Source: Ianthella basta (Eukaryota; Porifera; Demospongiae; Verongiida; Ianthellidae). From it: a DNA stretch of 64,000 nt. A model generated the notes under the pieces. The model worked only from the letters and a program-made list of their open reading frames with translations, made no database searches and had not been told where the DNA came from. The stretch's first letter is position 1, and every line of letters starts with the position of its first letter. The stretch covers positions 2,730,142 to 2,794,141 of the forward strand of contig OZ025869.1 of assembly GCA_964019415.1 (NCBI GenBank), given 5' to 3'. Shown one piece after another: positions 9,662-35,183 of this stretch. Both the position numbers and the translations under genes were made by a program.

Positions 9662-9786
9662 CTCTTTTGGGGGACAGATGACATGACACTTCATTTCTTT
9701 GATAGTACTGAACAAGGAGAACATCTTTGCCAACACGTCCACTGGAACACCACACAAAGTAAAATGTTGTATGCTCCCTTGATCAC
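9662..9786 (-). CDS. NLR gene exon 13: repeat module, 125 bases
   Basis: The acceptor GTGCCTGCAG/GTGATC and donor AAAGAG/GTACAA give phase 1 to 0 and exactly the length of exon 11. It ends 90 bases from the Harbinger insertion. A following phase-0 exon of about 200 bases is predicted, but I found none in the window. It may lie left of position 1 or have been lost. Confidence 0.62.
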
Positions 9787-12700
9787 CTGCAGGCACTGGG
9801 TCGGGAAACAGGACTGGTGTAGAGTTAAACATGTAAATACAATATATAACTATGTATACATTCTTAACTTCACATCGACGTCATCACTATTGCTTTTTAC
9901 ACACTATATAGTCACACAATACATGACTGACATACACTAACTTACCATTATCAGGACAATCCCAGGACTGCAGTTTAAAGGACAGGTCTATATCTGACAA
10001 GGAAGAATTCCTTCTGATTCCAAGGAGAAGGTAATGACAGAACTGCTCAGGTAGAGTCACACTACTACTATCCAGTGTCAGCTTGTTCATGGAGTTGTTT
10101 CCCGAGAGTGACCTTTCCATCTCCATCAGGACCTCATGATCTATTGCCTGTAGAATATGGCCCCAATAGAGTACATGATCCTCTTAACAGTTTGAGCCAC
10201 AAATGTGGCTCACACTGTGAATACCATTAAGTTGTGCGTATCATCGAGATTGCAAAATTGCTAAAACCAATATATAATTCGATTGAGCATAGCTTTCTCA
10301 ATGCGTATGCAGAATCTGAATGTGATATACACTTACTTATAAATCATAAAGAAAGCTTCAAAGTAGTCAAAATTAGTACAGAAAATGCACATTATCATTG
10401 GGTCCCACACTTATACAAACAAGTTTACAGAGGTTGAAGAGAGATATACCATGCACCAAAATACATCACCTGAGTATGTATGAATATATTTTCTGTTTCC
10501 ACGGAAACTGTGTGGCAGTTGAGATTAGATAGAAAATATTATACCAATAGTTGACTTTGTGGAAATGGTGTTGAACGTTTTCGTACAATTTTGATGTGAC
10601 ATGTACATTGATTGCTTATTGTGCCTTTGCGGCTCTTTTAATGGGCTTTCTACTGGTCTATGTTCAGTGCCCATACAAAACAGCATCACAGAGAAACTGC
10701 GACAGGAAGATGTAGGAAGATGCGCAAGGTACATGCGCTCTCTCTCAAAAGGCATGCACACTCTTTTTGGGGCGCCGAAGGCGCCCCTATATTGTTTTCA
10801 GATTTAGGTATTCGTATGGCTTCATGTTCGTATACATATATATATATATATACAGTGCAAGTTACAATATACACCACTAAAGTAAATAATATAATATAAT
10901 ATAAATAAATAAATTAATAAATAATTCCCAGGGGGGTTGGCGGCCTTCATGAGCATATGCTAGATATGTCTTTGAAGTACGGGAGATTTTAAGACTTTTA
11001 AATGAGACGAAATTTTTAATTCAGTCTTCATTCTTCTGCAAGCAGCCTGCAAAATACTAATATAAATACGCATAGGAGAACACTTAATGTATGGTGCATT
11101 TATATTGATGCATAGTGGTATCTTGTATATTAATGCAACTGGTCTCGTTGAGACATGAAACTTGGTGGACACATCCAAGTGGTCCACCTTCCTATGTTAT
11201 TAGCGGGATTTTTTAATTAGTCTCAAAATGGCTGACAAATGTGAGGTGTACGATTTATTTAACCAGCCAGGCCTGCTCAGTCTTGACACTTGGTGGACCT
11301 AGCCAGATAATCCAACTGTTCATGTCATTAACAGGATTTCTTAATTAGTTGCAAAATGGCCGAGAAAAGCGAGGTTCAATGCATATCCCACCTACCCGGC
11401 CCCGCTAAGTCTTGATACTAAGTGGACATAGTTAGATGGCCCATTTGCTCATGTCATTAGCAGGATTGCTTAATTAGTCACAAAATGGAGGCAATGTTTT
11501 GAACAATCACATTTTGGCACCAATTTGTAGGCATTTGCTGCTATGCTGGAGCAGAGCAGCACCCACATGTACACTTGCTCACAACTATCCAGCCACAATA
11601 TTCAGCTACTATACTACCAATAGATATATACAACCACCATCACCACCACAGTGGAAGTTGCAATGAGTAGTATATTATGTGCTACAGCTGAAAGAAAACA
11701 GACCACCATGCACATGCATCAGGTGCTGCTACCATATACTACTACCACCACCACACAGTGCAAGTTACAATATTACGGCCACCACATGCATTACTAGATG
11801 AAACGACCGCTGCCACCACCACACTGTGCAAGTTTCAATGCATGCATTCAGTATATGCGCCATTGCTCTAGAAAAAAAACACCACCGCCACCACCACCAC
11901 ACAGTGCAAGTTACAATATCGCAGCCACCACCACCTGTGCCAGTAGAGTATCTGTGTCAGTTGGTCATAGAAAAGACCACCAGTGCAAGTTACAGTAGCC
12001 ACCACCACATGTGCCAGTAGAGTATCTGTGCTAGTTGATCATAGATAAAGACCACCAGTGCAAGTTACAGTGGCTCCAGGCCAGCACATGCACGCACCAT
12101 TCGCACCACCACATGTGCCAGAAAGTGAATGCACTCAATGGCTGAAGGAAAAGACCACCAGCGCAAGTTACAGCCAGTCAGTACCTGCACCGCCACCATT
12201 GGAGTGCACGCTGCAGCAAGCAATTGTAACTTGCCCAAGGGCATGCCATTGAATTTCTTCCCATGCACTCTCAATTCAATGGCATGCCCTTAGGCAAGCT
12301 TACATTTGCTTGCTGCAGGGTGCACTCCAATGGCGGCGGTGCAGGTACTGACTGGCTGTAACTTGCGCTGGTGGTCTTTTCCTTCAGCCATTGAGTGCAT
12401 TCACTTTCTGGCACATGTGGTGGTGGGAATGGTGCGTGCATGTGCTGGCCTGGAGCCACTGTAACTTGCACTGGTGGTCTTTATCTATGACCAACTAGCA
12501 CAGATACTCTACTGGCACATGTGGTGGTGGCAGCTGTAACTTGCACTGGTGGTCTTTTCTATGACCAACTGACGCAGATACTCTACTGGCACAGGTGGTG
12601 GTGGCTGCGATATTGTAACTTGCACTGTGTGGTGGTGGTGGCGGTATATATATAAATATATTTCTGTCATTGCAAATGGCGGCGCTCACGTCAATCTTTA

Positions 12701-15700
12701 CAAAGCTTTAAATCCTCTCTAATGACGTTTCGCCATGTTTGAATCGAAGGAAATGTGGTCATAAACATGTGTTAATAGAGTGATACTAATAAAAAGCCTA
12801 AGGAACGTCTCTTCTGCGAGATACAGCTCCAATTATCACTGACGGACATTGTAAAATGGCCGCGCGCTCGACGCTTTCTGTTTGCTAGGCTCAAAACCAT
12901 CTTTCTTTAGATTTCGCCGTGTATCCAAAGAACACAAAGTGTTTCTAGAACATGTTTAAGTAATAGTATTGTGGTAGGAAGCTTACTTAACTGTTTTTTT
13001 TCTGCGAGGTACAGCCCTAAATACAACAGAAGTCTAGTGACCCGTAGGCCAATAATGGGAGACCAGCAAGTCATGACACATAATTACAGACATGATTCGC
13101 TCATAGAGTCATCATAGGGTAGCCTTTTAGCCAGCACACTCCTCCTCCAGGCACAAAGTAACAATTGCTCATTCAGAATGTAATATAGATCAAAAAGCAG
13201 TAGGCAAACATATGACAGTTTGGTAGGGATGCTTTCACTGGATATGGCTGGCTGCTCTGGAGACTTGGAACTCCTGCAAACCCAACGATCTAGTGTGTCT
13301 TTATGTATCTTTCAGGCCAATAACAATACTGTACCCCCAACTATCTGATTTACTGAATGTACATGGGAAAATTGCTAGCAAGTAGTTCGAGGTTCAGGGG
13401 CGCCCTGGTGCCCCACGAGTTTTTTAACTCGAAATACTTGTTTAAGTTGCCCGGACTCCCCTCCGAAGCGTGGGCACTCCTGCTGAAGGTGCAAGCACTC
13501 CCCCATCAAGACACAAACACTTCTTCTCTAGGGACTCGCACATAATGACCCAAATACTCTTTATCCAGGCCAAAGCACTCTCCCGCACAGTGTGAGAACT
13601 CGTTTTATCCCTTTAGTTACCAATGACACAAGCATGTGCCATGGTGAACTAGGCTCAGAAACGTCGCTTTTCTCTGGCTATATACGAGTAGTACCTGTCT
13701 CTTTCACAGGACTTGCAGCAGTGTTAGAGCCTTCCTTCGGCATACCTACCTCATCTGTGTGAAAACAACTGCTTTAGTTTGCGAGCAATATTATGCAATG
13801 TTTTAAGCTTATTGTAAGCTTAGGCATGCATGCGCTGTCATGAATTGGTGTAGGAAATACTCCTGTGATACTGAGTCAAGCAGCAAATGTTCATCATCAT
13901 GGTTTGGGGCTGATAAAAGGCTCGAACAATACGAATATGCATGTGCATTCTGCTCACAGGAGTCTTGTATCACGCAAGGAGTCCGGATTGTGTTTGAGAA
14001 TGCTGTCGAGTGTAATCGACTACTTCTGGGAACAGAGCATTAATTCCTCCTACATCGCTGTTTGAATGGAGAAATGGCCTTAAGGCGTGAAACACAGTAT
14101 AGCAAATTTCCTTGATGCGCAGCCATTTTAATTCCGTAATTGGGTGCATGGCACAAAGTTTACACTTAAACTCTCCCAGGCCACTTAAGTGGCGCACGCA
14201 AGAAACCACGAAAGTTGCATTTTATTATTATCGATTTTATTATACTTGATTATTAGGGCCTAATTTTATTTCAATTGGCATACTATGTTAGCGTTTGCTA
14301 GCAATACGTTCAGTAATAATGGCAGTAAAATGATACGCACATGCATATGTTATACAAGAGACTACAAATACCTATAAGTAATTTTACGGATAGATTGTAG
14401 TTATACGGAGGCCTCGTGCTGTATACGATTGGTTCTGCCTTGTCTGGTAAAGGCCAAAGCACGGAGAAGGACAAAGGTGTACAGGATTGTGTACAGGATT
14501 ACACTCTTCGCAAGTGAAGATCGTCCTCACTCATTTTGCCTTTGAACTACAGACATGGCATTCCTGCTGTCTGGCAGCCTTGCTGGAAAAGTGGCAGTCA
14601 CAAAAGTGTCCAGATGGCGGCCCGTCACCTCATGGTCTTCCTTTCTGCTTTCTGGAGTTGTGCTGGGCTGGGACATCATCTTCTTTGTGACCGAACAGAC
14701 ATACTTCTTCAATGGCATCTCGAAGCAGTGGGAGACTCATGCATCAAGATGTGCGTGTTGATGACCGAGACATTGACGAGGAAGTAGAACAGTCGCATCC
14801 ACCAGCGCCTCGACTTACGGCTGCAACTGTAGAGCATCCTCCGGGAATCAGCCAGATCAACACCTGTCATGTACTGGTTGTAGAGCTTCATGGGCAAAGG
14901 ACAAGAAACATCTTGGCACCGTCCATCCTTTGCTTTCCTGGGTACAGTTGTGTGCGTTCCAGGCTGAGCAATGGTGTTGATGAATGGTACGCACTTGTTG
15001 TCCTTCCGCACTATGCACTCAACCGAACCATTCACCACTGTGCCGACGTGCTCTCTTTGCTTCAGTGCCTTCTGCTGCGCCTTGGTGTCCTTCGTGGAAG
15101 TTGGCCAATTCTTTCTATTGGTACGCGTAGTTGCAATGTAGTACAAGTCATCTTGGAGTAACTCCTGAGCAAGATCAATTGAGGAGAAGAAGTTATCAAA
15201 GTAAAGATGATATCCTATCTTCTTCAGTTTCTGTGTGAGATGCTTGACCACTGTTGCAGACCTTCAGATGACCCCTCTGTGGCACCTGTGTACACCTCAA
15301 CTGTTTGTAGGTAGCCATTGCGAGACACAGCAAGACACCACACCCTGAAGCCCCTCTTCACCGGATTCTGTGGCATGTACTGCTTGTAGCTGCTGTGGCC
15401 CTGGAAAAGTACCATGCCTTCATCAATGGAGACTTCATGGTGTGGAACGTAGAGGTGATTGGAGCTCTTCAGTACCTCATCTAGGAAAGGGTGTATCTTG
15501 AACAGCTTATCATAGCCTTCTTCACCTGGTCTTTTTACTTGGGTGTTGTCATTCAGAGGAAGTGTACGAAGTAGTACCTTGAAGCGGCGGTTGGGCATAC
15601 AATCGGAGATGGCATGAACAGACAAAAGGGGGTTAGTTGACTGGTAGTCAATTGTGGCAGGAAGACGGATGATGCCCATGCAAATCACCATCCCAAGGAA

Positions 15701-18700
15701 CAGCATGATTTCATTTGCTGTTGTAGGATACCATCGGTGTCCATTAGGAGGTGGGTTTTGCTGGGCATACACGTTTGTCTGCTCTGCAATGTGTTCACAT
15801 GTGCCTATACCAAAAACTTGCAGAAAGGCGTCAATTGGAGTGGCATCTCTACTCAATGGATGGGTTGGTCCTGGAGTCTTCCTGAATTCTTTGATCTAAA
15901 AGGCTGGTGGTGTGCTGGTGGAAGTTGGAGTGCTTACAGATGACAAGCTGGAAATAGATTGCCACTAGATGACACCTGGATGGAAGAGTTCACGGGGCCC
16001 ATGCTGGAAGATGGATTGCTGGATACTGGTGAGATTGTGCTTTGCTGTGTATCTGTATCTTCCTCCTCATCCATGTCATCCTCATCTTCATCTAGGACCA
16101 ATTGAGCCCTTGCTTGCTCCAGAGCATCCATCCTGTTGTTGCCGTTCAACTCCCCTTCTTCTCCAGCACAGTCCTCATCTTCAGAGTTCAGCCAGTACTC
16201 CAGCTCTTCAAGAATAGCTTCCAGAGGAACTTTAGTTGATGTTTTGCGTTTCTGTTACTGTATTTGATAAGTAAATGTGTATTCTCGTACATTGCATGAC
16301 CTTATTGTGCTTGAATACGAATGGGTATTAAAATTGTGCGCAGAACTCACTGATTTTGAGGCCATTGCAAGTTTTTGTGAGAAATCGAACAGGCTAGACC
16401 CAAGCAAAACCAGCTCCAGTTGTATACTAAGCGCTGGGTAAGGCAAGTGCTTTGTACAGAGAATACGTGCGCAGAAAACCGTCGGCGAAGTAAAGACGCA
16501 GGTACCTTCGTTTATTGGCAGCTTCATTAGGATCACTATAAATACTTTACTACCCTACTTAAAAGATTTCAAACCACTTTTACTTGAGGTCCACGAGACG
16601 CGGGTCCCATTTTAATTGCCTTATTAATATTCAGTCATGTAGAAGTACAGATTTGTAAACCTTCTTAACTTCTACACTTTGTATCTCCTCCGTAACAATG
16701 TATTTCTTTTCAGAGCGATAGGTAGAGCTAGAGGTAGAGCGATAGAACAAGAGCTGTTGCACCCAATTATGTCAAAATCATTTCAACAAATGAGTCTAAT
16801 GTTCGTATTTCAACCTCACCTGCCATATGTACTAATGAGAGTTTTAAGGCATGAATTACCAGCACATCTCACACTGAAGCTTACCTTACAATCTTGTATG
16901 TGCTCACATCTAATTTCTGTCACATGTTGCAGACACAGCAACTTCACTACTGTGCTGAGTGGAGGCGCCTCCAAGTACACCTTGCCAAAGTGTTCTTTCA
17001 TGGCACCATCTGTGAATAGAAATATGACAACATGTATGCACTCAGTCAACTCTATAAATGGCAGACAAATTCTGCAGCTCATAATGACATTCATTGCCTA
17101 ACATCACACCACAACAGTGACTAGTGGTACACAGTGTCAGTCTGAGAGCAGTTCATGCAGAGCCACTCCATGTAAACACTACCTAGTGGACATGCATGGC
17201 AATGCCACTACAAATGTGGATGCCTCACCATGCTGTGTTACTCATTCTACCCTAACGGAAACTTAACAGATCTTGCTGGCTTTCAAATAAACCCTATAAT
17301 TAAAGTAGATGTATACCTACTCTTACCACAGTTTATGCTTTCCTGGAACATAATATTCTGAAGAAGGCCATCTACATCTCTCCAGTTTTTGGAATCACTA
17401 CCTCCACCTGTAGTCAATGACAATACACTATGAGAGGAGCAGCACTCACTGGCACTGTGTGTTATTCATTCACAGAAGGCTCATTCTTCAAATATACTAC
17501 AAAATTAAAAGTAAACTTAAAACGTGACGAGTGGAACTGGCAACAATACTATCTATTGTACACAGAGTTACACACAGTTAAATGAAAGTTTAACATTTGA
17601 CCTCTGACATTGGTCCATTTCATTTGGGTAATGTAGTCACAAGGTCCAGTAATAAAGTTCTATGAATATGAGTATTGTGGGCAACATCATGCCATACAAA
17701 TAGTGTACAAGGGAAGAAAGTTGTACTTTCTAGTTCTCACAGTACATGAAGTTACACCTATCCCACTGATTAATAAAGTGATTCCATCAAGTAAAACACA
17801 GCATACATGTATAGTGTACTAATGAACATCAAAAAGGCCGTCAACTTCCTTGTGAATACATACAAGAATACACACTGTATAATAGAAACATGTGATGCAC
17901 ATAAAAATGCCTCCCTGATAGGTGACGGCAATTCAAAGTGAAGCATGTCAGAAGCTTGGCTGTCCGCTGTTCCTCCGTTTCAGCAGTAAGGTGCTGTGCC
18001 TGCATGGACCTGTGGCGTTTAAGCCTAGAGGCCTGCTGACAAACTGTTTCCTCAGCTCTGCAGCGCTACTTCCAAGATACTCGGCTGTCAAGTGAGCCCC
18101 CTTCGCGCTGCAATTTCACTTGCTCTTTGCTTCCTGTGCGCTGCAGCTGTACGTGTACGGCACATGTGCAACAGTTGTTACGGTCACCAATGCAACGGTT
18201 GTTACGGTAAGGGTTCTGGATTGAGTTGTAATAGTACTAATAATGGAATTTTCAAGATTCTTCTGTATATGTTCAGTCCTCTCGGCAACCACTACAATAT
18301 CATCAGCAAACAGTAACAGCTAGACGTCAGCACCGTGTGCTCAGGACCACTCAAACAAGAATGCAACTAGCAGAGGCAGTACGGGCATTGACCACTATGT
18401 ATACCACAAAACAGGAGCAGTACTATTCACAGCTGGCAGACAAAGTAGAGGAGGCAACAATGGAGAGCAGACATGCTGCAGTGTGGGTTACCATTAACAT
18501 CATCACTGGCAGGAGGCTCGGACAGAATTGTAACATACTTTCCCCAACAGCGGCTTACCCAATGGAGGAACCACTTCCAACAACTACTCACTGCTGTAGA
18601 TGCAACTGAACCCTGTATTTCCCAGTCAATTGTCACAGAAGAATTGGACATTGACACGGCTCCATCGCAGCTGCTGAAGTGCAACTTGCAGCACGCACAC

Positions 18701-19839: not shown

Positions 19840-19898
<59 letters not shown>

Positions 19899-22800
19899 CG
19901 ATGATGATGATGAAACAGTAGCACCTGCACCTTTGTGTTGGATAGCTGTACACCACCTACAAATTTGTCCATTGCCTCCTTAATTATTTCATCAATATAA
20001 ATGTTAAATAACCACGGCGACATAACACACCCCTGCCAAGCACCTTGTGAAATTGGGTACCATCTTGAGAGTTTTCCATTAACCTGCACACATGCTTGAC
20101 TCGCCCTGTAAAATGACTGACTAGCTCTCAGTAGCTGTCCACTTACTGACCAACATCTTCCATAGGTTTTTCCCTGCATACGCCTTTTCCAAATCAATAC
20201 ACGCTATTGCAATTGTCTTCTGCTTATTCTTCTCCAGAATCTTCCCACTCAACTGCATAATGGTAAAAATCTGAACAGAGCTTCTCCCACTTTGCAAACT
20301 CCCTTGTATTTCGTCATGCTCTCTGTCTTTTTTCTAAGTTGATTATTTAGGATTTTGGAGTATACTATACTTGGTGCACTTAACAAGCCGATCCCTCTGT
20401 AATTGCTACAAGCCAATTTACTGCCTTTCTTATGCAGAGGTACACTAATAACTCTTCTCCAATCTTCAACCACTTCACCCCTCTTCCACATCAATTCTAT
20501 GACTAAGTGTAACCACTTAACTACTACACTCCCTCCTCCTTTTAACATCTCTGCATTGATTCCACACACTCCTGGTGTGTTCCTATTCTTTAGCTTTCCA
20601 ATGGCTGTAGCAACTTCATTGCAACTAATGTCTTCCTCTTCTTGCAAAACACCTGCATCATCTCCACTCACCTCATCTGCCACCTGGGTACCCCCTTGCA
20701 ATAATTCCGCAAAATACTCTCGCCAACATTCTAGGATGCCCTGCTCATCACCGATCACTTGGGCATCAGCAGCACACATTTTATCAGGCTCTTCTCTACT
20801 CCTCTCAGATGTCCTAACTCCCTTCCAAAACCGCTGCTGATTCTTTTGAAATCATCTTGTAAGGACTTGCCCAACTCTGCCCATTCTTCATTTCGTGCTT
20901 GTCTTATTATTCTCCTTGCATTTTTCTTAGCTTTTTGATATACCTCTTTAGCTTCCACTGTCTTCTGCTGCAACCATCTCAGATATGTTACCTTTTTTGT
21001 TTCACAGCTTTCCTTACCTTGTCATTCTATGCACCAACTTGTTCTCTTTCTCCCATCCTTAGACTGTCTTGCCCCACATACCTTTATTGCTGCACCTATC
21101 ACACCCTCCTTATAAACTTCAAGCACACATCTTCCACACTTTCTCCTGTCTCATGTATCGTCTCTTCCCTATTTACACCCAGTTCATTCATCTTCATTAG
21201 CAATTTTGCCTGAAACTTCATGCTCACCTCTCTCACCTCTTTCAGCCGATCTGTCTGAATTGACACATTTTCACCCTTCTTTTCAGCCTTTTGCACCTTG
21301 CACCCCATACTCATCTTCATCACCAGCAAGTAATGGTCACTGCTTACCTCCGCCCCTCTCACCATCTTGACATCCTTCACTCTCATACGAATTTCCCTTC
21401 TTACAACACAATAATCAATAATGCTCTTCAAACCCCTACCTGGACAGACCCACGTAAAATTATGTATATCCTTATGCTGGAACCAAGAGTTCGTCACCAA
21501 CATGTCATTCATGGCACCAAACCTCAACAGCCTATCCCCATTGTCATTCTTCACCTCCTCACCATTTCTGCCTATCACACTTCCCAAGCCTCAGTCCTTC
21601 CCTACTCGAGCATTAAGTTCTCCCATAAGAATCAATGTTTCCTTCCTTCCTAATTACCTTGTCGACAACCACCTGTAGATCACAATAGAAGCATTCCTTT
21701 TCCTTCCTTTTACTATCATCCGTTGGGGCACTTGACCAAGGCCAACCACTCTCTGTCTATCTTCAGTTTCATCACTACTATTCTTTCATTTATACACTGC
21801 CAGCTTTTCACACACCTGCTTACATCCTCTGACAGGAACACTGCCACACCTGCTCTTGATCTATCCTCGCTTACACCAGAATAGCCTACGTAAGAATCCT
21901 CCACATTCTTCGCACCATTTCCTCTCCATTTGTCTCACTAACGCCTAAAATATCAAGCTTACATTTCTTCATCTCTGCAATTACCTCTACATCTTTCCCT
22001 CTTTACAATCGCACATTCCATGCTCCAAATCTGAACAAATCATCCTTCCGGCTTGCTAGCATCTCCGCTGGCAGGTTGTCCTTGACTGTTTCTCTAGCAC
22101 GGCTGTCATGCAGCCGTCATTTTTGAATAAATTATAATATATATACAAAAATAACACGAAATCCCAAATAGACCATGATTATTCGCATCGCTTTGCTTAC
22201 TTATGCTCGATGCTCGGCAAAGTTATGAACAACTGTACATACATGTTGAGGTACAACACCTCATGTCTGACATGCACTAGTGTTTACTCAACAACAACTC
22301 ACCATGAATGGTCAGTGTCTGAAGCTGTCGGGAACACAAAACAGGCTCCAGTAGACGCTTTACCTCTGCGTGAACACCACCACCAGGAAGGTCTACCATG
22401 AGATCTTGGAGTAGAGAATGGTTTCTGAGGCAGTAGCCAAAAGCCATGCTATCATAATTTGTCTTAGGTGACACTTCTACCTCTTCTCCCAGGGCATTTG
22501 GCACTAGTCGACCAACTAAAGCTGTATCTTGAGTTTCAAAGAGTGATTGCATCAGAAGCTCATCAAAGTTTTTGAAACCCCTAATGTTGCTGTTCTGAAG
22601 GAGGTCATAGTGTGCCAGTTTACTGAGTCCTGAATAAAATCTCCATGTCTGTGCCATGTGGAGCTTCCCAAGGTGCTCATCCCAGATTGCACACTGAACT
22701 GTGACCTCCTGTAGTGCAATGTACACTGCACTAAGGAACTCCTGGACGGTGAGGTGAATGAAGTAGAAGCTCTCAGCGATGACAAAGCGCAGCTTGTCTA

Positions 22801-24770
22801 TGGGTCTTGCAGTGAGTAGGTTGCATCCAGTCTCACGGTTGCTATATTTACCTTGGAGTCCCTTGAGGTCTGAAGTAGTGAAAATCATTTTCTGCTGTTT
22901 GGTGCAGCGATAAGCTATTTCACAAAGTTCAAGAAAGTCATGATCTTGGCAAGGGAGCTTGAGTGCACTCTGTAGGCCTGGAAACATTGGGGTTAGTGTC
23001 TCACAGATAAAATCATCATATATCTGTGTTAAAGTTGAGGGGAGGTCTTTCTTAGACAAGAACACACGAGAAATAATAGAAAGCACAACAGGAATGGCAC
23101 AGAGGCCTTTGATTTGGGGAAGAGTCTCCAGCTTGGCACACAGATTTGCAGACAGTTCTGATTTGCCTTCTTCACGGAAATAACTCTCTATATATAGTTG
23201 TATTTGTTCACTTGTAAAGCCCAGGACTTCTATGTTGGCAAAAGGAGTCTTTGTAGACTCGAAGTGATGGTAAATTTCACTCGTCACGATAGAGCGAGAG
23301 GTGAGGATCACATGGCTGTGTGGGAGAGGTGACTTCAGGGAGTGGGTCAGCAGGTCAATGAAGAAGGGGCTATGGCGAAGCTCATGAGGAAGTTCGTCGT
23401 ACCCGTCCAGAATCAGCAACATGTCAGCACCGCAGGTAGCTTTCATCATCTGAACAACACTCTCCATATGACCAACCTGCTCAAATAACTCCATCAGGTG
23501 TTCAAGTTCAAATGAAGATGACTGCTGCAGGCATGTGAGAGGGACGAGGTCACGAAGCTCTACCATCACCACCAACTTGTAACCGAGTGATTCCATGTCC
23601 CTGGATGCATCTTTACAGAGTTTCTTGGCCAAGGTGCTCTTGCCTGTGCCGGGGGCACCACTGATCACCACCAACTGGTTCCTCTTCATTAGCCTCGGAA
23701 TGTCCTCATATTCAACCTTACCCTTTAACTCAGTGAACACCTTGTCAACTCCTTCAGTTAACGAGCAAACAAGCTGCCGGTGGTCATCCTCAATATCTAG
23801 TTTAAATTTGGAAAGCACTAAGTTAATGTACTCCATCTCCTGATGCCTCCTGTATCGGTCTTCCACTACATTCATCTTAGCATAGTGCTTGCGGAGGTTG
23901 TCAGAGAATCGCCTCAACTATAATAAGTGGAGATGTCAACAAAGAAGTAGACACATTATACTCAGCATATGTACATGTTCTATTGAATACAATTAAATAA
24001 TGCAAATGTGAGCGGATTTGAGAAAATGACCCACTTCACGCAGTTTATTGATTTTGAGTTAGTGCCATCGTGTTAAAGTAGAATGGTTGATCTCTCTATT
24101 GCCCTTTGTTGCGCTTCGATAGCTGTGTCAGTTCCCGAGATATGCTTGCCAAAAATACGAAATTATGCTACGTAGGTGCTTGGCTGAAAAAAGCATTTAA
24201 ACATGGACTTCTGGTCACAGCACGAAAGGTGGACAACTGGGGTTGGTCGTCGTGGGAAGCGTATCTTCCTCGTCCTTGGCAAGGGAAGGTCTTCATGCTC
24301 ATCAGGAATGCTGGAGTAGTGTACATATGTTGAATTTGAGCAAGGCCTGGTTGTCTTGAAGAACATTGGTAGCTTCTTATGCTTACATGACATGTTCGTA
24401 ACATCACGCCCGATGGCCACCGTGTAAATTTGCAGTCTTCATTTGAGCTTTAGAGAAGGACTATAGGATTCAAACTTGGCCACAAGATAGGGACTGTACC
24501 ATAGATATGAACGATGCCATAATCTGTTTTTCGGGGAATAATCACCCGCATGACTGTTTTGTCCCATAACTATTTGTTCACATATTGCGCAAAGTGGGTT
24601 GTTTTGTCTAATCCACTCACAAATAACATTAATATAACTGTATGCTGCACACATTACTACACATACAGAAGGAGACAACATACCACACTAATAGACATGG
24701 CTACACAGGCCTACATAGACAGTTAAACATGGCTATATATTGTTGGCATAACCAATGATCAGCATAGCAT

Positions 24771-24850
<80 letters not shown>

Positions 24851-25040
24851 CACACACATGCATGCACAAGCAACCAACCTCTTTCTCATAATCATCCACA
24901 CTAGTTAACAAGGCTGATCCTTTATCAGGCCCTGTATAATGCAGTGGTTGAGAGACACAATCACAATGATATGACCATGAAGTGAATAATATGAAATGAG
25001 AAGGCAACATGCATGTGTACACACATGCGTGCACACACGC

Positions 25041-25071
<31 letters not shown>

Positions 25072-25084
25072 TGCACACGCGCAC

Positions 25085-25125
<41 letters not shown>

Positions 25126-25596
25126 CACGCACGCACGCACACAACACACACACACGTGCACACCTGTCTCCAGTTTCCCTTTCATTGCTTCTGCTAGAGC
25201 TTTCATCTTTGGATTCCCTTTGACTCCAATGATGACATCACATACTATCTTCAAGGCATCATCAGTGCATTTTTTTGTTAGACACAAATGAAGCATCTCA
25301 TTCTGTTGCTTGGGATCATTTGTCATTGATATTTCCTTTTGATCACCACCATCAATTATACCCCTCTGCAACAGTTCATATATGACAGCATTTGCATCCA
25401 TTTCTGCAATGAATTGCTTCCTAAAGCAGTCCAGAACCACCTCAGCTACATGAAAAGAGAGGAGTCATGATACACCAATATAGTCTTTGTGCAGGATCAC
25501 CCCACCCACATAGAGCAGATTCACCCAATGTGTGTGCACATGTGTGTGAAAATGTGTGTTGTGTGTGTTGTGTGCATGTGCATGTGCATGTGTGTT

Positions 25597-25659
<63 letters not shown>

Positions 25660-28600: not shown

Positions 28601-31600
28601 CTGAGTAAGGACCTGAAGAGGCTAGATTTCTTCCATCATAGATGCATTCGCAGTACCTTAGGCATCACAAACCAACAACAATGGGACAACCACATTACAT
28701 CTCAGAGCATCAGGCGGCAATGGGGAGACACGGGAACTGTGTCGGATAAGGTCTCCAAATGCCATCTGGAATGGCTTGGACATATTGCTCGAATGCCTGA
28801 CAAATGTATACCCAAAGTCTGTCTGTTCAGCTGGTTTCCGGAACCTCGCCCACAAGGAGGCCCACTGAAATGGTGGGGAGATGTGGTACGCAGTGATCTG
28901 AAGGACATTCAAATCCCAGAAGACACGTGGTATGCAAAGGCAACAACATCAAGGGAAGAGTGGCGTGGTACCTATAGAGAGGCTCGTGCAGACATCACCC
29001 ACACAGAGCAACTCAGAGGACAAACTGACAATCAGGTACAAAGCCCAGAATGCTTGAGGAAGTTTCATAGAGAAAGTGACATGAAGAGGCACAAGTGTGT
29101 GGCTGAAAGACACAAACCAGTTCATGAACAACAAGAAACTGTACAGTACGAAGTAGTTCAAACATCGTGGAGGATTCACAGTCCACTCTTGCAACCCAGC
29201 CCAGTAGAAGATCTAGACTCTTTGCTTTGCTCCCCTATTTTGGGGTTACCTTACCGAATTCGGTAGTGAAACAAAAGGATAGAAGGAAGGTGTGTGCACG
29301 CATGCGCGTGTGTGCGTGGGTGTGTGTAAACGCATGCAGGGCTCAAATGTCCAATGAGTAAATAGTGAGTAATGAGTAAGGTATCTTAATATTCTCAAGA
29401 TTCTCAGACACTAAGGATGGGATGTACGCACATTGCAAAGGAAAAGTCCAATGACCACACTAGATGAAGGCACACAGTATACGTACATGGAACAAATACC
29501 AAGTCTGTCCACTCTCAAGAGGAAGATTTGTACATACAGTGGAACCTGTCTATAAAGGACATCATGAATACGGGGACCTCTCTATAGAGGGTACCATGAA
29601 GAAAGGTAGCTCTCAATTTATGGGCATCCTGAAAGAGGGAACCTCTCTATAAAGGACAATTTGACTAAGAACACTCTCACTAAGGATACTTGTCCTCTAT
29701 TCGCACATTAGCTGACTTTACGTATGCAGGTTAGGGACATGTAGTGCTAGTCTTCTACACTTCTGAGGCCTGTTCAATCACACACATATACGTAAATGCA
29801 TGCACACACCCACATTCAACATCCACACTCACAAACACATCCACCCACTCAAGTGCAAAATAAGCGCATACATGCAGTATGTTTGCATGTATTGTAGAAC
29901 ATGCTACAATACATGCTACAATACCTACTATATACTACCTCATACTACAATAGTACAATCGTGTACAAATCACATTAACTGATAGTGTAACCACAAATGT
30001 TGATCTGAAAATGTCCATCTGTACCACTACCACCTGCACAACTGACAATGCACAGCTGCCGCATAACAAAAGGATATTGGACGAAACCTTTGTAGTTCAT
30101 GCGGCTAAAGAAGCTATCTGGGAAATATATTATTATATATAATACAGTATTGTCCTTAATTTTTCAGCTCCCTAATTGTGTGGCACCTGCCTAAATAGTA
30201 CATCATACTCAAATTTTTGACGAAAAAGGCTACCCCTTATTCTTATTGTTCGTCTTGGACTCTAATAAGTCGTCATCTGCTACAGAGTCTAATGAATCAT
30301 TGGCTGCTGAGGATTCTAATGAATTTTCAGCTGCTTCACTCTAATGAATTGTCGGCTGCTGCCATTTCTTTTTTTGCCGAGGCTTTATTTCTTGTCAATA
30401 TTGACAGCGAAGAAGGCTTTCCAGCCACGCCTAAATCTCCCACTCTTCCTGGTGATCGAACTCCAAACAGATGGCCACCAACAACTCCATCCCGCATCAG
30501 AAATGTCTTCGGACAGCGACTCTGACCGGCGATTCAGCGACGAGTCTGAGAAATCATTTTGTTTCCTATTATTCCATCACGTACTCTAATTAGTCATCAT
30601 AATTTTCTAATGTATTCTGCCAAAAAGTTAGGGACAATACGGTAGACTTAATTGGTGAATAATTTAATGAATTACTGCACATACATTGTGTGGACAGTGA
30701 TGCCAACATTGACTGCTGTTGCATTTGGTTTGTGCAAAGTGCAAGTATGGACGGAGTTTTCGCATGTGGAACATGTCCAATATAAGCAATGGGGGCCACT
30801 TTCAACCTTCATATTCTTTGCTCTTTCTCCTGCAGATAGGATTTGAGGATTTTGAAATAAGCTGTGTATGCAATTGAAGCTGCATTCTTCTACTTCAATT
30901 ATGTGTAACAAGTATTTCAGTGATGATTTCCTTGGCAGCGAATCGCTGCCTACAAGAGTACCCATATAGATACACAAAATCGCCAAATTGACTTAGGCGG
31001 AGAGGTTTAAAGACTACAGGAAGACAAATAGCACTGAGCCATGCACAATCACAGCATCAAACTTCTTCATGTGGTGGGGGATTTTGAAAAACAGATTCGT
31101 TGGTGAGTTATGTCTTGAAAACTAAACTTTTCCTTCAACTTTTCTGAGTCACTGGTACTGGATTCCTCAAAGCCGGAACCTTGGACCAAAGACTCCCACA
31201 TGGAGAAGTTGTAAAGCATCACTGCGTTACCAAATCTGGTCTCATTGTGCAGAAAGCTGGCATTCTAAGTTGTCAGAACGGCACTTTACACCCTAGTTCT
31301 ATTCTGCTTCCTCAAACAGCTTCAGTCACACGACAATCTCGTGACCTGCCATTTTCATTTGAACTTACATACCTAATTCACAAGAAGTGTGATGCACTTG
31401 AGTGTGATGGAGAATGTCTTCCTGCTTCCAGACCTGTTGTGCCCATGCTTCTTGTCATCATGCATGATGACAAGAGACATGTGTGACACTTAAGGTTAGA
31501 AGTCAAAAATTATAGGTCACACAAAAGAAATTGCAATTTTTTCATTAATGTGTAGAATGGCTCTTAAGCTAGCTGTATACCAAGTGCTACAGCTGCATTC

Positions 31601-34600
31601 ATCTCCGCAAAGGAGATATAGCCTGTAGAAGATCGCGAAATGACACAATATTCGACATTTGAATATTAATGAGGGCAAAAAATGGCCACCTGAGAAGACA
31701 ACCGGTGTGTATTTTGTCAAATTCCAAGCATTTGCTCTACTGCATTCACGGTTACAATGCTGTTCCATCCCTTCTGTGTCCTCTTCATCTGTTGCTGAGC
31801 TTCCTGAGCTCGATATACTTCTTTCCAGTTCAGGCGATTCGCCATAATCCGATCTTGACTTGCCCGTGAAGAAACTTTCCAGTCAGTGAGGTTTTCTTCC
31901 TTGAAGCAACCTTGACACCGAGTTAGTGAGGTTCTGCGTTGTATGAATGACCACTTCAGTAGCACAAAGAGTGCTGCAGATGGCTTCCGAAGCCATAAAC
32001 TTGCTGATACGCGGCACATCTTCTGACATAACTGCAAGTTCGGAGTTTGTTGTCCATGGTGCAAGCTCGTACGGCTTTTAATTAAACTCTGAAAGATAGC
32101 CAAAAGAGTGCCAAACACGTTCGCATGAGCCAATCATAGGCGCAGTGCACCATTCATGCTGCGTTAGGTCATGAATGTTTCAGTGCCATTTTTCAAAAAC
32201 TTATGCATTGCGTTATTCTCAACTGCAACATTATAAACTATTATAAATTATTATTTATAAACTAATTCTCTGCACAGAAACGGATTGGGCATGTTTGCAA
32301 AACTAGTTTTGGCTGGTGAGTCCTAAGGCAGCTCGTGCAGTGAAAAGGCTGAAACAATGGCAAAGAAGTGCACTACAACTGCAGCAAAGGATAGCGTGTC
32401 AACATTACATTATACCATATGACTGCAATTTTGGTGGGAAACTAATTTTGGTAGATTGGCGGTTTTCAGAGCAACTCGCCAATATTTCTTATCCACCAAA
32501 GTTTGCATCAGTACTATTGCACAAAACTAGTTTCCCTGTATATATACTAGGCAGCCTGACTTGTAGCTGGATGCGCCGGGCCTATAGCTTAATCGTCGGC
32601 ATGGATTTCATAACCAACAGCTGCACACAAGGACACCAGGTTTCCAAAGGGTTTTGGACACCAGAAGTAGGTGAACAGCTATAGGCCTGTTCTCTGTTTC
32701 TGCCCTGGAGCAGTATGATTGTGTGCAAAGTCAGAGGCAGCAAGTGCAAGTGTCAGTACATCTACCAAAAGGAGGCTAGGATCTCCATTGTATGCCAAAG
32801 AGTTCGTGGACAAGGCTAAGGATTGGAACAAAAAAGTCCAGATGTGGTCAAACAACAGCATGTATACTCCGCAGCCACTGTTCATCATCATTGCAATCTA
32901 GCTCTTGACCGTTTTAGATTAGCCATTTTGCTATGAATATCATTAAAGCATAAGAGTTGTCCAACTGCCAAAGTAAATTCCGCCAAATTCAATAATTTCA
33001 TCAATCTGCCAAAGTAACTTTCCAGCCATACGGTACATTACTTACTACACTTACATTAAGTATTTCTTGCACTCGGCATTTGCATGCTCTCCCTTCTTAA
33101 ATGTGACATGACCACAGAAGTAAAATTGTAGTAACCAATTATATAGTGCATGCAGATATAAGGAAAGTAATCCAGCATCAATGAAAATCAAAACCATAAC
33201 TATAATTCTGCATTAGATGACAAAACATTTATATAGTCTCTTCCAGTACAACACAGCACTGCTGACCTTGCCCACTCCTTACCTAGGATAGGCCCAGGGT
33301 TGACCTCCACATCGCCAGCAAGAAGTAAAAGTGTTCGCAAGAAGAAATGGGGATGAAGCTTCACAACTGGAGCCAACATCTTGACAAGGAGGGCCAAATG
33401 CCTTATGAATGCAAGACAGGAACTGGAGTCTTTGAACTGTGAGGAGAGCAAGGGAAATAGCCTTTGAGACACTGACTGGGTAGAGAAGAAGTAAAACGTG
33501 ATAGAGAAATGTGATACACATGACACTGTGACAGTTGCAGGGTATGCAGAGCAGTGTGGTGGAGCTCACTTACCCTAATGTGGCTCACACAGGACCTTGG
33601 GATGGTAAACGACATCACTAAATGACCATGTACTCTCCTTGCACACTTTAATCCTCTCCGTAGCTTCAGTGAAGGAAATTTCACCAGCAGACTGCAAAGC
33701 TGCTTAAATACTGCTCGGCACTTGTACCTGCAAAATGAATAGCATCAGGTTAGTATTAACTATTCATTTCAACTGTAACAATGGTGCACGACACATAAAA
33801 ATGTGTATAAAAAGTGCTTTTCAACAGAACTCACCTCATCCCACCTGAAATACAGACAATGGTTAGAGTTGATAGACGGCATGCTAAAGTGCACAGGACA
33901 TCACATGTCTTCTGGTGTGAGTGGCGTCTGTGACCTACATTTGACAGGAAGTGTTGCCACGGAATGGAATCAGCTAGTACTGGCAATGTGCTAATGGTAC
34001 ATGTTTCCATGGAAACACCTCACCTGATAATGAGGTCGCTTTCCGACCTCTCCGCCTCCTGGCCGAGTGAGGGAGTCCTTCATGTACAATTAACGCCAGG
34101 TGGAGGAATAGGTCATAGGTAACCAATGTGGCTTGACAAAGGATGAACTCAAGCACTACAGCCATCTTCTCAATCGTGTCCTTAATGGTCAGGTTGTACC
34201 TTGTTACAGGAAGACAAAGAAGGGTTTGTCCACTTAGTCCATTAGGAGCCACAGAAACCTTTATGGAAATGAGGACAACACAACTCAGTTAGGGAGGTAA
34301 CCATGTGCCTGGCCTGATGGTGTGCCCATAGCTACAGCAGTAACTTGTGCAGGCTGTGTATAGGTTAGCCTAAGGGAATTGGGTTCAAACACGTACATGT
34401 AGGTATGGCGTATATGTGGATTCATTTAACAGAGACATTACACAACGAATGTCACATCATACCAGTGCAGAAAGGAGGCATTACATGCAAATAGTGACCC
34501 TTACTGTGTGAGGGCTCCACATTAACAAGTGGAGAAGAGTATCTTGTGGTTGGAAAGCAAAGGGACTGATTTTGAGGTGGTCACCACACTCCGCATTTAC

Positions 34601-35183
34601 TGCTGGTAGTGGGCAGCCCAAATGGCACAATCCCGGGTCGTGTGATGTCCATTTTCTAAACAGAAAACTCCGGCAATTGTCAATCACTTTAGTACAAGGC
34701 CACCCAACACAGAGCAGACTATTACCCAGGTAAGGATTGGGCCAGTTGGTTTCTAAGTGCAGAATGGAATAGCAACAAGTCAATAAACATGGAGTCTGGG
34801 TGGAGGCATGACAAAGATGAGTAAGTGTGATGTGGGCACACTCCACAACAAAGGAGCAGATAAACAGGTGCTTGGCAGTTACATGTACGTACTATGAATC
34901 ATCAGTTTTAGCTTGAGTGTGGCACAACATACACAGAAGACATGCTATGATCAACCCACCAACCTGATATTGGTGTCTCTGGTGGTGGAGTGATGAGCTG
35001 TGCTGAGGTGCACACAGCTGTCCACAGGAATAGACATAGGAAGAACACACACATCACTGTTAGAACAAGAAATGCGACATGTCCTGGAACAATTCCTGGT
35101 CTGGCAGGACCAAAGATGGTTGGTCTATAAGTTGGGTGTAAACCACGAGTAGGAGCTCTGTAACGATTGTGGGAGTGCCTCAT
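9662..35183 (-). CDS. 2A-linked membrane protein + CARD-NACHT-LRR (NLR) gene, 13 exons found, 3' end missing
   Basis: The exons I place are 35183-34964, 34795-34726, 34655-34505, 34258-34024, 33844-33835, 33727-33574, 33475-33283, 25445-25164, 24931-24879, 23917-22303, 17009-16885, 10147-9946 and 9786-9662. All have GT and AG borders, all 12 junction phases agree, and the joined frame of 1145 codons has no stop. Residues 1-341 form an unknown single-pass membrane protein ending in 2A (NPG/P). From residue 342 on come a CARD-like fold, a linker, a NACHT ATPase and LRR modules. NLRs are cytosolic pattern receptors that oligomerise through NACHT and signal through CARD. 2A-like motifs are known in some sea urchin NLR genes and in non-LTR retrotransposons. 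The last exon ends in an open donor, so the C-terminus is missing. The structure was read by eye and needs transcript proof. Confidence 0.78.
9946..10147 (-). CDS. NLR gene exon 12: leucine-rich repeat module, 202 bases
   Basis: The acceptor ATTCTACAG/GCAATAG and donor GATAATG/GTAAGT give phase 0 to phase 1. It carries two LRR-type strands ([17 protein letters not shown] and [17 protein letters not shown]) separated by a helix ([12 protein letters not shown]), the NLR kind of LRR. Its first 20 residues ([21 protein letters not shown]) echo the end of exon 10 ([20 protein letters not shown]), which suggests a repeating exon module. Confidence 0.72.
10148..11130. other. Intron sequence; short GC hairpin
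   Basis: No coding exon is seen. An exact palindrome, GGGGCGCC-GAA-GGCGCCCC, lies at 10769-10787 in otherwise AT-rich DNA, followed by TA-rich simple sequence near 10840-10920. Confidence 0.6.
11140..11490. repeat. Tandem repeat, about 129-base unit, nearly 3 copies
   Basis: The phrase GGATT(T/G)(T/C)TTAATTAGT..CAAAATGG occurs at about 11205, 11333 and 11462, each preceded by a CTTG..ACT..GTGGAC block. The unit period is 128-129 bases. A related reverse-oriented piece lies at about 62465-62550. Confidence 0.75.
11474..12655 (+). repeat. Fold-back element 1 with 75-base tandem arms
   Basis: Arms 11878-12255 and 12273-12645 are near-perfect inverted repeats around a 17-base spacer. Each arm is itself built of tandem units of about 75 bases whose core is CTGTAACTTGCACTGGTGG plus TACTCTACTGGCACATGTGG. 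The left side extends unpaired to 11474. The whole is the reverse complement of 62808-63990. It shows no coding capacity and no recognisable transposase. It lies in NLR intron 11. Confidence 0.85.
12888..13444 (+). repeat. Dispersed repeat, copy 1 (inverted copy at 35885-36440)
   Basis: About 550 bases are the reverse complement of 35885-36440 at high identity. Landmarks are TCTAGTGACCCGTAGGCCAA and GAAAATTGCTAGCAAGTAGT. The terminal 64 bases (13378-13441) can fold: CAAGTAGTTCGAG pairs with CTCGAAATACTTG around a second palindrome, GGGGCGCCCTGGTGCCCC. Confidence 0.85.
13445..14500. other. No gene seen
   Basis: Intron 11 sequence of the NLR gene. Only short open frames without family resemblance are present. 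The last 100 bases probably belong to the piggyBac copy that follows. Confidence 0.5.
14527..16365 (-). pseudogene. Second piggyBac transposase, one frameshift in core, one intron
   Basis: I place the start at ATG 16365: MASKS, donor TCA/GTGAGT, a 99-bp intron (16252-16350), acceptor AACAG, then [21 protein letters not shown] strongly acidic N-region ([14 protein letters not shown]) precedes the transposase. The catalytic blocks are [20 protein letters not shown] (about 15430), [18 protein letters not shown] (about 15200) and [12 protein letters not shown] (about 14850), so all three Asp are kept. A one-base indel near 15262 separates block 1 from block 2. A second frame change near 14709 leads into a likely Cys-type tail. 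It is less decayed than the 3.3-6.7 kb copy. I could not find its TTAA ends with confidence. It sits in NLR intron 11, in the same orientation. Confidence 0.82.
16885..17009 (-). CDS. NLR gene exon 11: repeat module, 125 bases
   Basis: The acceptor CTATTCACAG/ATGG and donor TGTAAG/GTAAGC give 42 residues, phase 1 to 0. It resembles exon 13 in length, phase and sequence (VTEIRCEHI here, IKEMKCHVI there). It completes GAT (Asp) with the last base of exon 10. It lies alone in intron sequence, 5.3 kb from exon 10 because nested LINEs separate them. Confidence 0.65.
17010..18240. other. NLR intron 10, no exon seen
   Basis: No supported coding exon. Around 17960-18090 the minus strand has a short Glu/Arg/Gln-rich reading ([12 protein letters not shown]) reminiscent of repetitive N-terminal regions of Helitron-like proteins. 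That likeness is weak. Confidence 0.35.
18318..19913 (+). mobile_element. LINE copy 2 (plus), nested inside LINE copy 3, with (GAT)n tail
   Basis: A plus-strand reverse-transcriptase fragment in several frames: [21 protein letters not shown] (about 18690), [19 protein letters not shown] (about 18893), [14 protein letters not shown] (active site, about 19020), [11 protein letters not shown] (about 19218) and [21 protein letters not shown] (about 19335). It lacks the endonuclease and has an internal deletion between the fingers and YADD, so it is a 5'-truncated, dead copy. The 3' end is a (GAT)n run at 19837-19913. It differs in sequence from the three minus-strand LINEs. Confidence 0.82.
19837..19913. 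repeat. (GAT)n microsatellite
   Basis: About 77 bases of nearly pure GAT repeat, interpreted as the 3' tail of the plus-strand LINE. Confidence 0.95.
22303..23917 (-). CDS. NLR gene exon 10: NACHT NTPase and start of LRRs
   Basis: This is a 538-codon open exon with acceptor TTATTATAG/TTGAGG and donor ATTCATG/GTGAGT (phase 1). After a roughly 80-residue helical lead it shows Walker A (GAPGTGKST, exon residues 87-95, about 23,650), Walker B/NACHT box ([12 protein letters not shown], about 166-177, about 23,400) and a sensor-1-like strand (HVILTSR, about 202-208). Winged-helix and superhelical regions then follow ([30 protein letters not shown], the usual NLR FLxA box). It ends in the first LRR-like strand ([10 protein letters not shown]). 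Key nucleotide-binding residues are intact, so ATPase function is expected. Tandem NACHT genes are abundant in sponges and cnidarians. Confidence 0.93.
23918..24771. other. NLR intron 9, no exon seen
   Basis: Two overlapping minus-strand open frames at about 24163-24420 have no recognisable domain and are not needed for the NLR phases. No promoter or RNA gene is apparent. Confidence 0.5.
24772..24846. repeat. (CA)n microsatellite
   Basis: A nearly uninterrupted CA run of about 75 bases in the intron between NLR exons 9 and 10. Confidence 0.98.
24879..24931 (-). CDS. NLR gene exon 9: 53-base linker exon
   Basis: The exon lies between acceptor CATTATACAG/GG and donor AAAGAG/GTTGGT. It enters in phase 1, leaves in phase 0 and encodes [18 protein letters not shown]. 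It is needed: joining exon 8 straight to exon 10 hits a stop, whereas through this exon the frame runs into [12 protein letters not shown]. The exon is sandwiched between two CA microsatellites. Confidence 0.72.
25020..25162. repeat. (CA)n-rich tract beside NLR exon 8 donor
   Basis: Interrupted CA/GCAC repeats of about 140 bases end directly at the donor of the CARD exon (GT at 25163-25162). On the transcribed strand this is GTGTGTG, so the splice donor lies at the mouth of a GU-rich tract. Confidence 0.95.
25164..25445 (-). CDS. NLR gene exon 8: CARD-like death-fold domain
   Basis: The acceptor TTTTCATGTAG/CTGAG and the donor GAGACAG/GTGTGC give 282 bases, phase 1 to phase 1. The roughly 93 residues form a six-helix death-fold pattern ([71 protein letters not shown]). 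The spacing fits CARD better than Pyrin or DED, but the assignment is by eye. In NLRs this domain recruits adaptor or caspase CARDs. The intron upstream is 7.8 kb and holds a plus-strand LINE. The downstream intron begins inside a CA-rich tract. Confidence 0.75.
25542..25655. repeat. (TG)n microsatellite followed by (GA)n
   Basis: A TG-rich run ending in GAGAGAGAGAGAGA, in NLR intron 7 just upstream of the CARD exon. Confidence 0.95.
25690..29270 (+). mobile_element. LINE copy 4 (plus), near full length but decayed
   Basis: In order: an AP endonuclease start ([16 protein letters not shown] about 25900; [19 protein letters not shown] about 26035; [20 protein letters not shown] about 26265), reverse-transcriptase fingers/palm ([14 protein letters not shown] about 27565; [10 protein letters not shown] then TAG at about 27840; [10 protein letters not shown] about 28035) and a thumb/connection part ([11 protein letters not shown] about 28640; [17 protein letters not shown] about 28760). 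The tail is C2H2-like ([16 protein letters not shown] about 29050), typical for one family of these elements. The YADD region is missing or badly altered between 28080 and 28260. Many stops and frameshifts. It is a different family from copies 1, 3 and 5. It fills NLR intron 7 in antisense to the gene. Confidence 0.83.
29271..33282. other. NLR intron 7 remainder: repeats, no exon seen
   Basis: About 4 kb without a supported exon. At 29537-29700 phrases such as CAGTGGAACCTGTCTATAAAGG recur (29537, about 29575, 29640), resembling the ends of pogo/Tigger-like elements. Only one end is convincing. Around 32437-32545 and 32960-33040, words such as GATTGGCGG...CGCCAA suggest short MITE-like inverted sequence. 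Short open frames on both strands (for example 31181-31486 plus and 31717-32133 minus) show no family resemblance. Confidence 0.45.
33283..33475 (-). CDS. NLR gene exon 7: 2A-like ribosome-skipping motif
   Basis: The acceptor has a long pyrimidine run (TTCTTCTCTACCCAG) and the exon opens in phase 0. After a helical stretch ([15 protein letters not shown]) comes [14 protein letters not shown], a full match to the 2A consensus D(V/I)ExNPGP with the usual preceding Gly and Leu-rich run. Three codons later the donor CTAG/GTAAGG ends the exon in phase 1. The 2A reaction would release the upstream chain at NPG and restart at Pro 342. The first base of the next codon (G) is completed by CT of the CARD exon, which gives [10 protein letters not shown] without interruption. 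A Met 30 residues before the cleavage point ([12 protein letters not shown]) could serve as an alternative start, giving only a short leader peptide before the 2A site. Confidence 0.82.
33574..34795 (-). CDS. NLR gene exons 2-6: unknown domain of the upstream 2A product
   Basis: Exon 2 (34795-34726, phase 1 to 2) reads [20 protein letters not shown]. Exon 3 (34655-34505, to phase 0) is Cys-containing ([20 protein letters not shown]). Exon 4 (34258-34024, to phase 1) is largely helical ([20 protein letters not shown]) and ends basic (ARRRRGRK). Exon 5 is a 10-base micro-exon (33844-33835). Exon 6 (33727-33574, to phase 0) is basic and helical ([18 protein letters not shown]). Every intron has a good donor (GTAATA, GTAAGG, GTGAGG, GTGAGT, GTAAGT). 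No stop appears in the chosen frames, while alternative joins stop quickly. The fold and function are unknown to me. Placed after the membrane segment, this part would face the opposite side from the N-tail. Confidence 0.6.
34964..35183 (-). CDS. NLR gene exon 1: start and membrane segment
   Basis: ATG 35183 begins 73 codons and ends in phase 1 (ATATCAG/GTTGGT). A basic, Arg/Tyr/Pro-rich N-tail of about 34 residues is followed by one strong hydrophobic segment ([20 protein letters not shown], residues 35-54) and a Pro-rich stretch. With positive charge before the segment, a type II (N-in) single-pass topology is likely. No cleavable signal peptide is evident. I do not recognise the protein. 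Confidence 0.65.

Follow-up and report, generated by a model that had tools for sequence, protein, structure and literature searches.

In the genome of the sponge Ianthella basta, a minus-strand gene within the 64,000-nucleotide stretch C2:2730142-2794141 (hereafter the window) probably gives rise to one mRNA from which two proteins are made by ribosome skipping at an internal 2A box, namely a membrane leader and an untethered CARD-NACHT receptor, and this arrangement probably recurs across a large family of NLR immune-receptor genes. According to the mechanism we propose, splicing of one pre-mRNA would join the leader exons, of which that with the 2A is the last, to the CARD exon, and the 2A would make most ribosomes skip the Gly-Pro bond, yielding the membrane leader and a free receptor that begins with proline. 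The unskipped share would be a membrane-tethered receptor. A single transcript, skipping and its efficiency, the topology of the leader and a role of its own for the leader are what we infer. There is good support for the proposal of the initial annotation of this DNA that leader, 2A and CARD-NACHT form one gene: phase, order, strand and frame agree in many copies, distant ones included, and the leader is under purifying selection.

The genome comprises 209 Mb in 96 contigs, and the gene was compared with its own paralogues there; L-numbers below denote individual loci in this genome and C-numbers its contigs. A DNA search with the 2A exon, in which 40 of 58 candidates were scored, placed 34 copies (that of the window included) on C2 between 1.10 and 4.07 Mb, all on the same strand. 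Further leader-2A copies lie at C2:15.15-15.33 Mb, on C8, on C12 and at C11:3.67 Mb (the comparison of these covers the sequence as far as the 2A). The close set consists of the window and 20 paralogue loci fetched as 10-kb stretches (18 on C2, one on C9 and one on C11), hence 21 copies, and the distant set of 13 loci, among them L029, L030, L033, L034, L037, L040, L041 and L043. Close copies were spliced by alignment, and regular-expression splicing was kept only for L030 and for microexon lengths.

The leader and its 2A box

The joined gene has 13 exons and 1193 codons on the minus strand, ending in a TAA stop at 9586-9584, and its predicted products are a leader of 337 amino acids and a receptor of 856. 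Six exons, all on the minus strand, encode the leader. Exon 1 (34964..35183) carries the start codon, a basic N-terminus and the strongest hydrophobic segment (residues 36-54), and its ATG is present in 21 of 21 close copies. Exon 2 (34505..34752) encodes a cysteine-bearing body, and exon 3 (34024..34258) a weaker hydrophobic segment (residues ~190-213) followed by the basic stretch RRRRGRK. A microexon of 10 nucleotides (33835..33844), of the same length in L030, L029 and L033, precedes exon 5 (33574..33727), which encodes a basic conserved block (RYKCRAV...SHIR) with 20 of 52 columns invariant among eight aligned copies. Exon 6 (33283..33436) holds a hydrophobic stretch and the 2A box (33290..33331), and ends in phase 1. 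All leader splice sites, including the GT donor of exon 1, are kept in 21/21 copies, save the microexon acceptor (20/21).

The thirteen exons of the initial annotation were said to join without a stop. With the borders it gave, its seven leader exons indeed form an open frame in the window, but two of those borders and the 3' end needed correction, and the paralogues give six leader exons rather than seven. The acceptor of its second intron, the AG at 34655, is present in only 1 of 21 copies, as against 21 of 21 for the acceptor before 34752; its exons 2 and 3 and the intron between them form a single exon, and L029 and L030 are open across that intron. A 2A exon starting at 33475 was likewise rejected, with a preceding AG in 2 of 21 copies as against 21 of 21 (and L029, L030 and L033) before 33436.

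With these borders, the leader frame is open as far as the 2A in 17 of 21 close copies and the 2A is read in the spliced frame in 18. The block 35305-33275 (minus strand) is conserved as a unit, introns included, and ends sharply just past the donor of the 2A exon; it aligns to all 20 close copies, in some of them split into two or three pieces. The more distant L030, on C4, with 73% exon identity to the window, shares the six-exon structure, its exon 2 being longer, and yields 358 open amino acids that end just past the 2A. Two partial leader copies, L031 (C2:4067500) and L032 (C2:3984400), contain stops and have a degenerate or missing 2A end; these are probably pseudogenes with an internal duplication.

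The 2A motif itself is real. Its core, D(V/I)ExNPGP, has a single match in the window (33291-33313), with 0.00 expected by chance, and the upstream context LLLLAG-D fits the pattern described for motifs 2 and 6 in the passages compared of PMC12846837, in which a leucine-rich run leads up to (A/S/C)G and then the D. The box had been placed between leader and CARD at residues 329-342; the position between the two holds, with an in-frame join to the CARD, and the residues become 325-338. Two types of 2A, at 31 and 23 places, are intermingled in the C2 array. Among about 100 listed matches to the 2A core, many lie outside the NLR array.

The link between the 2A and the receptor

The CARD exon (25164..25445, minus strand), whose first full codon lies four residues past the 2A proline, has an acceptor in phase with the phase-1 end of the 2A exon in all 21 copies where a CARD was found, that is, in the window, L047, L048 and 18 of the 20 close loci, with copies on C1 and C4 and both CARD types included; among the 20 close loci, no CARD was found in L021 and L025. 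Each of the 20 has a CARD or a NACHT downstream on the same strand, and 18 have the NACHT. Of the 40 NACHTs listed for the C2 array, 37 lie downstream of a 2A at a distance of at most 15 kb and 32 at a distance of at most 12 kb; none of 2000 uniform random placements reached the latter number. A listed CARD lies within 9 kb on the same strand downstream of 43 of the 65 leader-2A places and upstream of one, with none on the opposite strand, the 9 kb limit having been set after the ~8 kb distance in the window gene was known. Outside the C2 array the corresponding downstream count is 13 of 30 places. The 2A-to-CARD intron measures 494 bases on C4, and the distance in the window is 7.8 kb. Two receptors, L049 (C4) and L050 (C16), have no 2A in 5.9 and 3.9 kb of upstream sequence, respectively, a weak negative given the distance in the window gene.

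CARD-like and NACHT exon candidates are very numerous genome-wide and are arrayed on several contigs, with first-look counts of 643 and 759 for the two CARD types and of 443 and 469 for the NACHT. The lists used above are partial: 150 candidates were scored out of 643 (type 1) and 150 out of 759 (type 2), with possible overlap between the lists, and 79 and 102 out of the two NACHT counts.

The leader as a protein

By frame constraint among distant copies, the leader is protein-coding, with exons 1 and 3 as exceptions in some pairs. For seven distant pairs (197-326 codons), the ratio of nonsynonymous to synonymous substitution rates (dN/dS) is 0.43-0.53 in frame, with upper 95% bootstrap bounds of 0.61-0.73. 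The other two frames give 0.66-1.04, and both lie above the bound in six of the seven pairs, the exception being L009-L037 with one frame at 0.68. In a wider set of 15 pairs the in-frame ratio is 0.43-0.71, highest in close pairs, and between the window and L030 it is 0.56 for exon 1, 0.49 for exon 2, 0.67 for exon 3, 0.47 for exon 5 and 0.44 for exon 6. The same two sequences differ by gaps at 3 positions in 1006 exon bases as against 117 in 794 intron bases (exon 2 drawn from 34747). Exon 5 and the 2A exon were found in 13 of 13 distant loci, and an exon-1 match in eight of them, beginning MRHSHN in L029, L034, L037, L040 and L043, MRHFPN in L030 and MSHSHN in L033, and running from residue 8 in L041; it was not found in the remaining five.

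The leader is most likely a membrane protein, as judged by hydropathy. It had been described as a 341-residue protein with one membrane segment; hydrophobic segments are indeed present in the 337 residues, as expected of a membrane-anchored partner, but their number is two or three. In a 19-residue window hydropathy reaches 2.85 at residues 36-54, 1.73 near 190-213 and 1.87 at 296-314, and L030 is alike; the segment of exon 3, at 1.73 in the window, reaches 2.03 in L012 and 1.94 in L025. By the positive-inside rule, basic stretches mark the cytosolic side of a membrane. The basic stretches before the first segment and after the second suggest that both are cytosolic, and we favour a topology with two crossings and both ends in the cytosol. 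From its N-terminus, which is basic, the leader would run through a strong membrane segment, a loop with cysteines, a weaker segment with the basic stretch behind it, and then a basic block, to a hydrophobic end with the leucine-rich 2A.

The initial annotation had assigned the leader to no family, and remote-homology searches agree, with no match in Pfam (E<=1), PHROGs (E<=0.1) or PDB (E<=1). A profile of exon 5 gave four rows against PDB, all with E of 0.42 or more, and no relative among viral contigs. The sole match in prokaryote contigs, L051, was rejected as a 22-residue chance match in an ordinary bacterial contig.

Receptor domains

The CARD-NACHT-LRR architecture first proposed for the receptor stands in its NACHT, which is clear, and in its CARD, mainly by fold; the LRR drew no support from the Pfam and PDB searches. 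The NACHT exon (22303..23917) matches Pfam NACHT at 3e-17 and 63.4 bits, above the cut-off of 26.7. It is joined to the CARD exon by a short linker exon (24879..24931), which keeps the frame in the joined gene. The CARD gives E 0.0029 and 18 bits in Pfam, under the cut-off of 23.9. A single-sequence AlphaFold2 model of it is a six-helix bundle (predicted local distance difference test score of 75 for the best of five models, below 50 for three of the five), and a Foldseek search with this model returned the Apaf-1 CARD at the top (template modelling score 0.79, E 0.041), the best rows being mostly CARDs and none reaching E<=0.001. The modelled fold thus points to a death-fold N-terminus of the CARD-like kind. 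The second CARD type, about 30% identical to the first, was recognised solely by its similarity to it. In having a CARD-like fold ahead of an NTPase module, the receptor resembles Apaf-1 and NLRC4-type proteins. These CARD-NTPase proteins are not known to have a leader or a 2A.

Four exons follow, on the minus strand like the rest. Those at 17327..17407, in a paralogue-matching stretch with 79-86% DNA identity, and at 16885..17009 match the paralogues and keep the frame, as does that at 9946..10147, in which an LRR-like pattern was read by eye and which has no Pfam match. The 203 C-terminal residues, near whose end this pattern lies, gave no match in Pfam (E<=5) or among PDB chains (E<=1). The last exon (9584..9786), formerly thought to end at 9662, runs on to the TAA, and paralogue homology stops near 9572.

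Evolution of leader and receptor

Across nine copies, only two of which are of one NACHT type, mean DNA identity of the leader block is 0.931 in 22 pairs that share a NACHT type and 0.926 in 14 pairs whose NACHTs are 47.6% identical. Leader and NACHT identity are weakly correlated (Spearman 0.35, p 0.036). The NACHT typing kept 10 of 21 copies (nine without the window), rows with a stop or with fewer than 350 residues having been dropped. From these identities, the leader block looks to have been exchanged or homogenised largely apart from the receptor. A second leader type, class B, goes with the second of the two 2A types and was read at three loci, L044-L046 (C2:1170300, 3752000 and 3800700), where the same first membrane exon is followed by another body that ends in LLLRSGDVEANPGP. 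Exon 1 and the body are both open in L044; a frameshift interrupts the body in L045 and exon 1 in L046.

Alternative explanations

Several observations weigh against one mRNA with two products. The leader frame is broken in four close copies, by a stop in L023 and by frameshifts in L009, L021 and L022, and the NACHT aligns without stops in L009 and L022, given which the leader may be dispensable. The CARD lists, which are partial, show no CARD within 9 kb for 22 of the 65 leader-2A places. Candidate poly(A) hexamers lie between 2A and CARD, three of them in the 494-base intron on C4, and in 17 further 2A-CARD introns ATTAAA occurs in all 17 and AATAAA in five; these hexamers do not decide the matter either way. 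The third hydrophobic segment, just before the 2A, makes the topology of the leader end less certain, and the second CARD type has no Pfam CARD match.

The coding case for the leader has its own difficulties. Exon 1 in two of the close pairs, and exon 3 in three close pairs and in L030-L040, have dN/dS ratios above 1. Among the 13 distant loci, only five (L030, L033, L040, L041 and L043) yielded an exon 3. Codon pairs were taken from tblastn in the open frame, by which stop counts are biased toward that frame. Exon and intron identities to the window are 0.733 and 0.724 for L030, and 0.664 and 0.571 for L029. Since the two are close even in L030, the coding case rests on frame and gaps. In the close copies conservation is nearly as high in introns as in exons, and no consistent third-position excess is seen (in the frames of the initial annotation); distant copies were used because the test on such young copies gave no consistent signal.

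One may suppose that the 2A serves dual targeting, mainly dividing one receptor into a tethered (unskipped) and a cytosolic (skipped) form, with the leader a mere anchor that has no role after release. This follows the proposal made for sea-urchin NLRs, and we consider it a minority possibility. There, an N-terminal 2A in NLRs is both a signal sequence and a recoding element, with ~80% recoding for the one tested (Roulston 2016, PMC4981915, passages compared), and membrane segments of sponge NLRs have been interpreted as marking membrane-bound receptors (PMC12909245, passages compared). Class B, with its different body near the same membrane exon, also looks as if the anchor mattered most. On the other hand, constraint spans the body of the leader, and a plain anchor would not need 337 constrained residues. 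We argue from this constraint that the leader does more than dual targeting.

It is rather improbable that the receptor mRNAs begin in or just before the 2A exon, at a methionine 20-30 residues upstream of the 2A end, exons 1-5 being then a separate or alternative transcript. Such a methionine precedes the 2A in 19 of 21 close copies and stands at another place in L030, L034 and L040, which recalls the 26-residue leaders of sea urchins, and the copies with a broken leader and an open NACHT would be accounted for. But the methionine is missing in L012, L026 and the distant L029 and displaced in other distant copies, exons 1-5 keep the reading frame of the 2A exon in 17 of 21 copies, and the upstream block is kept as one unit.

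It is very unlikely that the leader block is a neighbouring gene of its own that just happens to be upstream. Its homology does stop sharply just past the 2A-exon donor, and the histories of leader and NACHT differ in part. Yet the leader has no terminal stop and runs into a donor kept in 21/21 copies, the CARD frame in the window opens just 21 bases before the domain without a methionine there, and order and strand are fixed.

Least credible of all is the idea that a mobile element or virus with a 2A left this arrangement behind as a relic. Non-LTR elements are known to carry 2A (PMC4981915, passages compared), and the pattern D(V/I/M)ExNPGP has 360 matches genome-wide (307 with V alone; none in the reversed control). 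Within the databases compared, however, the leader has no match in Pfam, PHROGs or PDB and its exon 5 no viral-contig relative, and the gene has introns and is under purifying selection.

Relation to known systems

The papers named here are cited for the passages compared. StopGo/2A is called rare in cellular genes (PMC12846837). In the sea urchin, 85 of 241 NLR members belong to SpNLR2A, and in 14 database entries a 26-residue N-terminal 2A acts as a signal sequence; dual targeting, with a share of the NLR membrane-tethered, was proposed (Roulston 2016, PMC4981915). The gene described here resembles SpNLR2A in belonging to an NLR family with many members, in having D(V/I)ExNPGP before the receptor, and in the leucine-rich stretch and membrane-targeting hydrophobic sequence. 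In contrast to the 26-residue leader there, some 337 residues in six exons, with a membrane exon of their own, precede the 2A here. For some sea-urchin NLRs the 2A is placed 'within the N-terminal region' (PMC4981915), and these may have longer leaders. With the 2A/StopGo of viruses and non-LTR elements our gene shares the core motif and its leucine-rich upstream context; unlike these, it is a spliced host gene in which the 2A would part a membrane protein from an immune receptor (PMC12846837, PMC11512398). A 2A before NLRs is thus already known from the sea urchin.

Rao 2025 is said to be a survey of eukaryotic 2A, and Yuen 2014 reportedly described putative membrane-bound NLRs in Amphimedon. 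The initial annotation knew of no described example with this upstream domain, and this agrees with the literature compared: no long conserved leader before an NLR 2A occurs in the passages of PMC4981915, PMC12846837, PMC11512398, PMC12909245, PMC6208332 and PMC5890393, with Rao 2025, Yuen 2014 and Odon 2013 outside this scope and able to contain one. NLRs with predicted membrane segments in the sponge Dysidea avara have been read as putative membrane-bound receptors (PMC12909245), and the receptors described here are likewise sponge NACHT receptors with predicted membrane segments. In the passages compared of that paper 2A is unmentioned, and the word 'ribosome' has no occurrence in its main text. 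The membrane-bound NLRs of Dysidea and Amphimedon may represent two products if their membrane segment precedes a 2A.

A further reading, somewhat less likely than not, is that of a paired-protein immune gene: at tens of NLR loci a single mRNA would encode a membrane protein that stays constant and a CARD-NACHT receptor that varies, the 2A setting their ratio. Leader DNA identity is 93% even where the NACHTs share 48% of their residues. On this reading, the leader block would be exchanged or homogenised among loci, the leader would be a stoichiometric partner, guard or platform for the receptor, and some sponge NLRs taken as membrane-bound would be two proteins. Membrane partner and cytosolic NLR may be made in equal amounts, as first suggested for this gene; the leader may instead keep a share of the NLR tethered to the membrane, as was proposed for sea-urchin 2A NLRs. 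A 2A heads a large immune-receptor family in one animal genome, behind a conserved protein. Should skipping take place, this would be a natural immune gene for two proteins, with a ratio fixed in translation; a constant leader and variable receptors would be able to evolve apart inside one gene; and the question of membrane-bound sponge NLRs becomes testable.

Other features of the window

A DDE_Tnp_1_7 transposase fragment lies in an intron of the gene (15227-15895, minus strand), and a DDE_Tnp_4 transposase fragment about 1.5 kb past its 3' end (7397-8116, plus strand). Two open reading frames match Collagen, which fits an animal genome, one at 47673-48479 (minus strand), above the Pfam cut-off and with a weak COLFI match below its own cut-off, and one at 58499-59479 (plus strand), below the cut-off.

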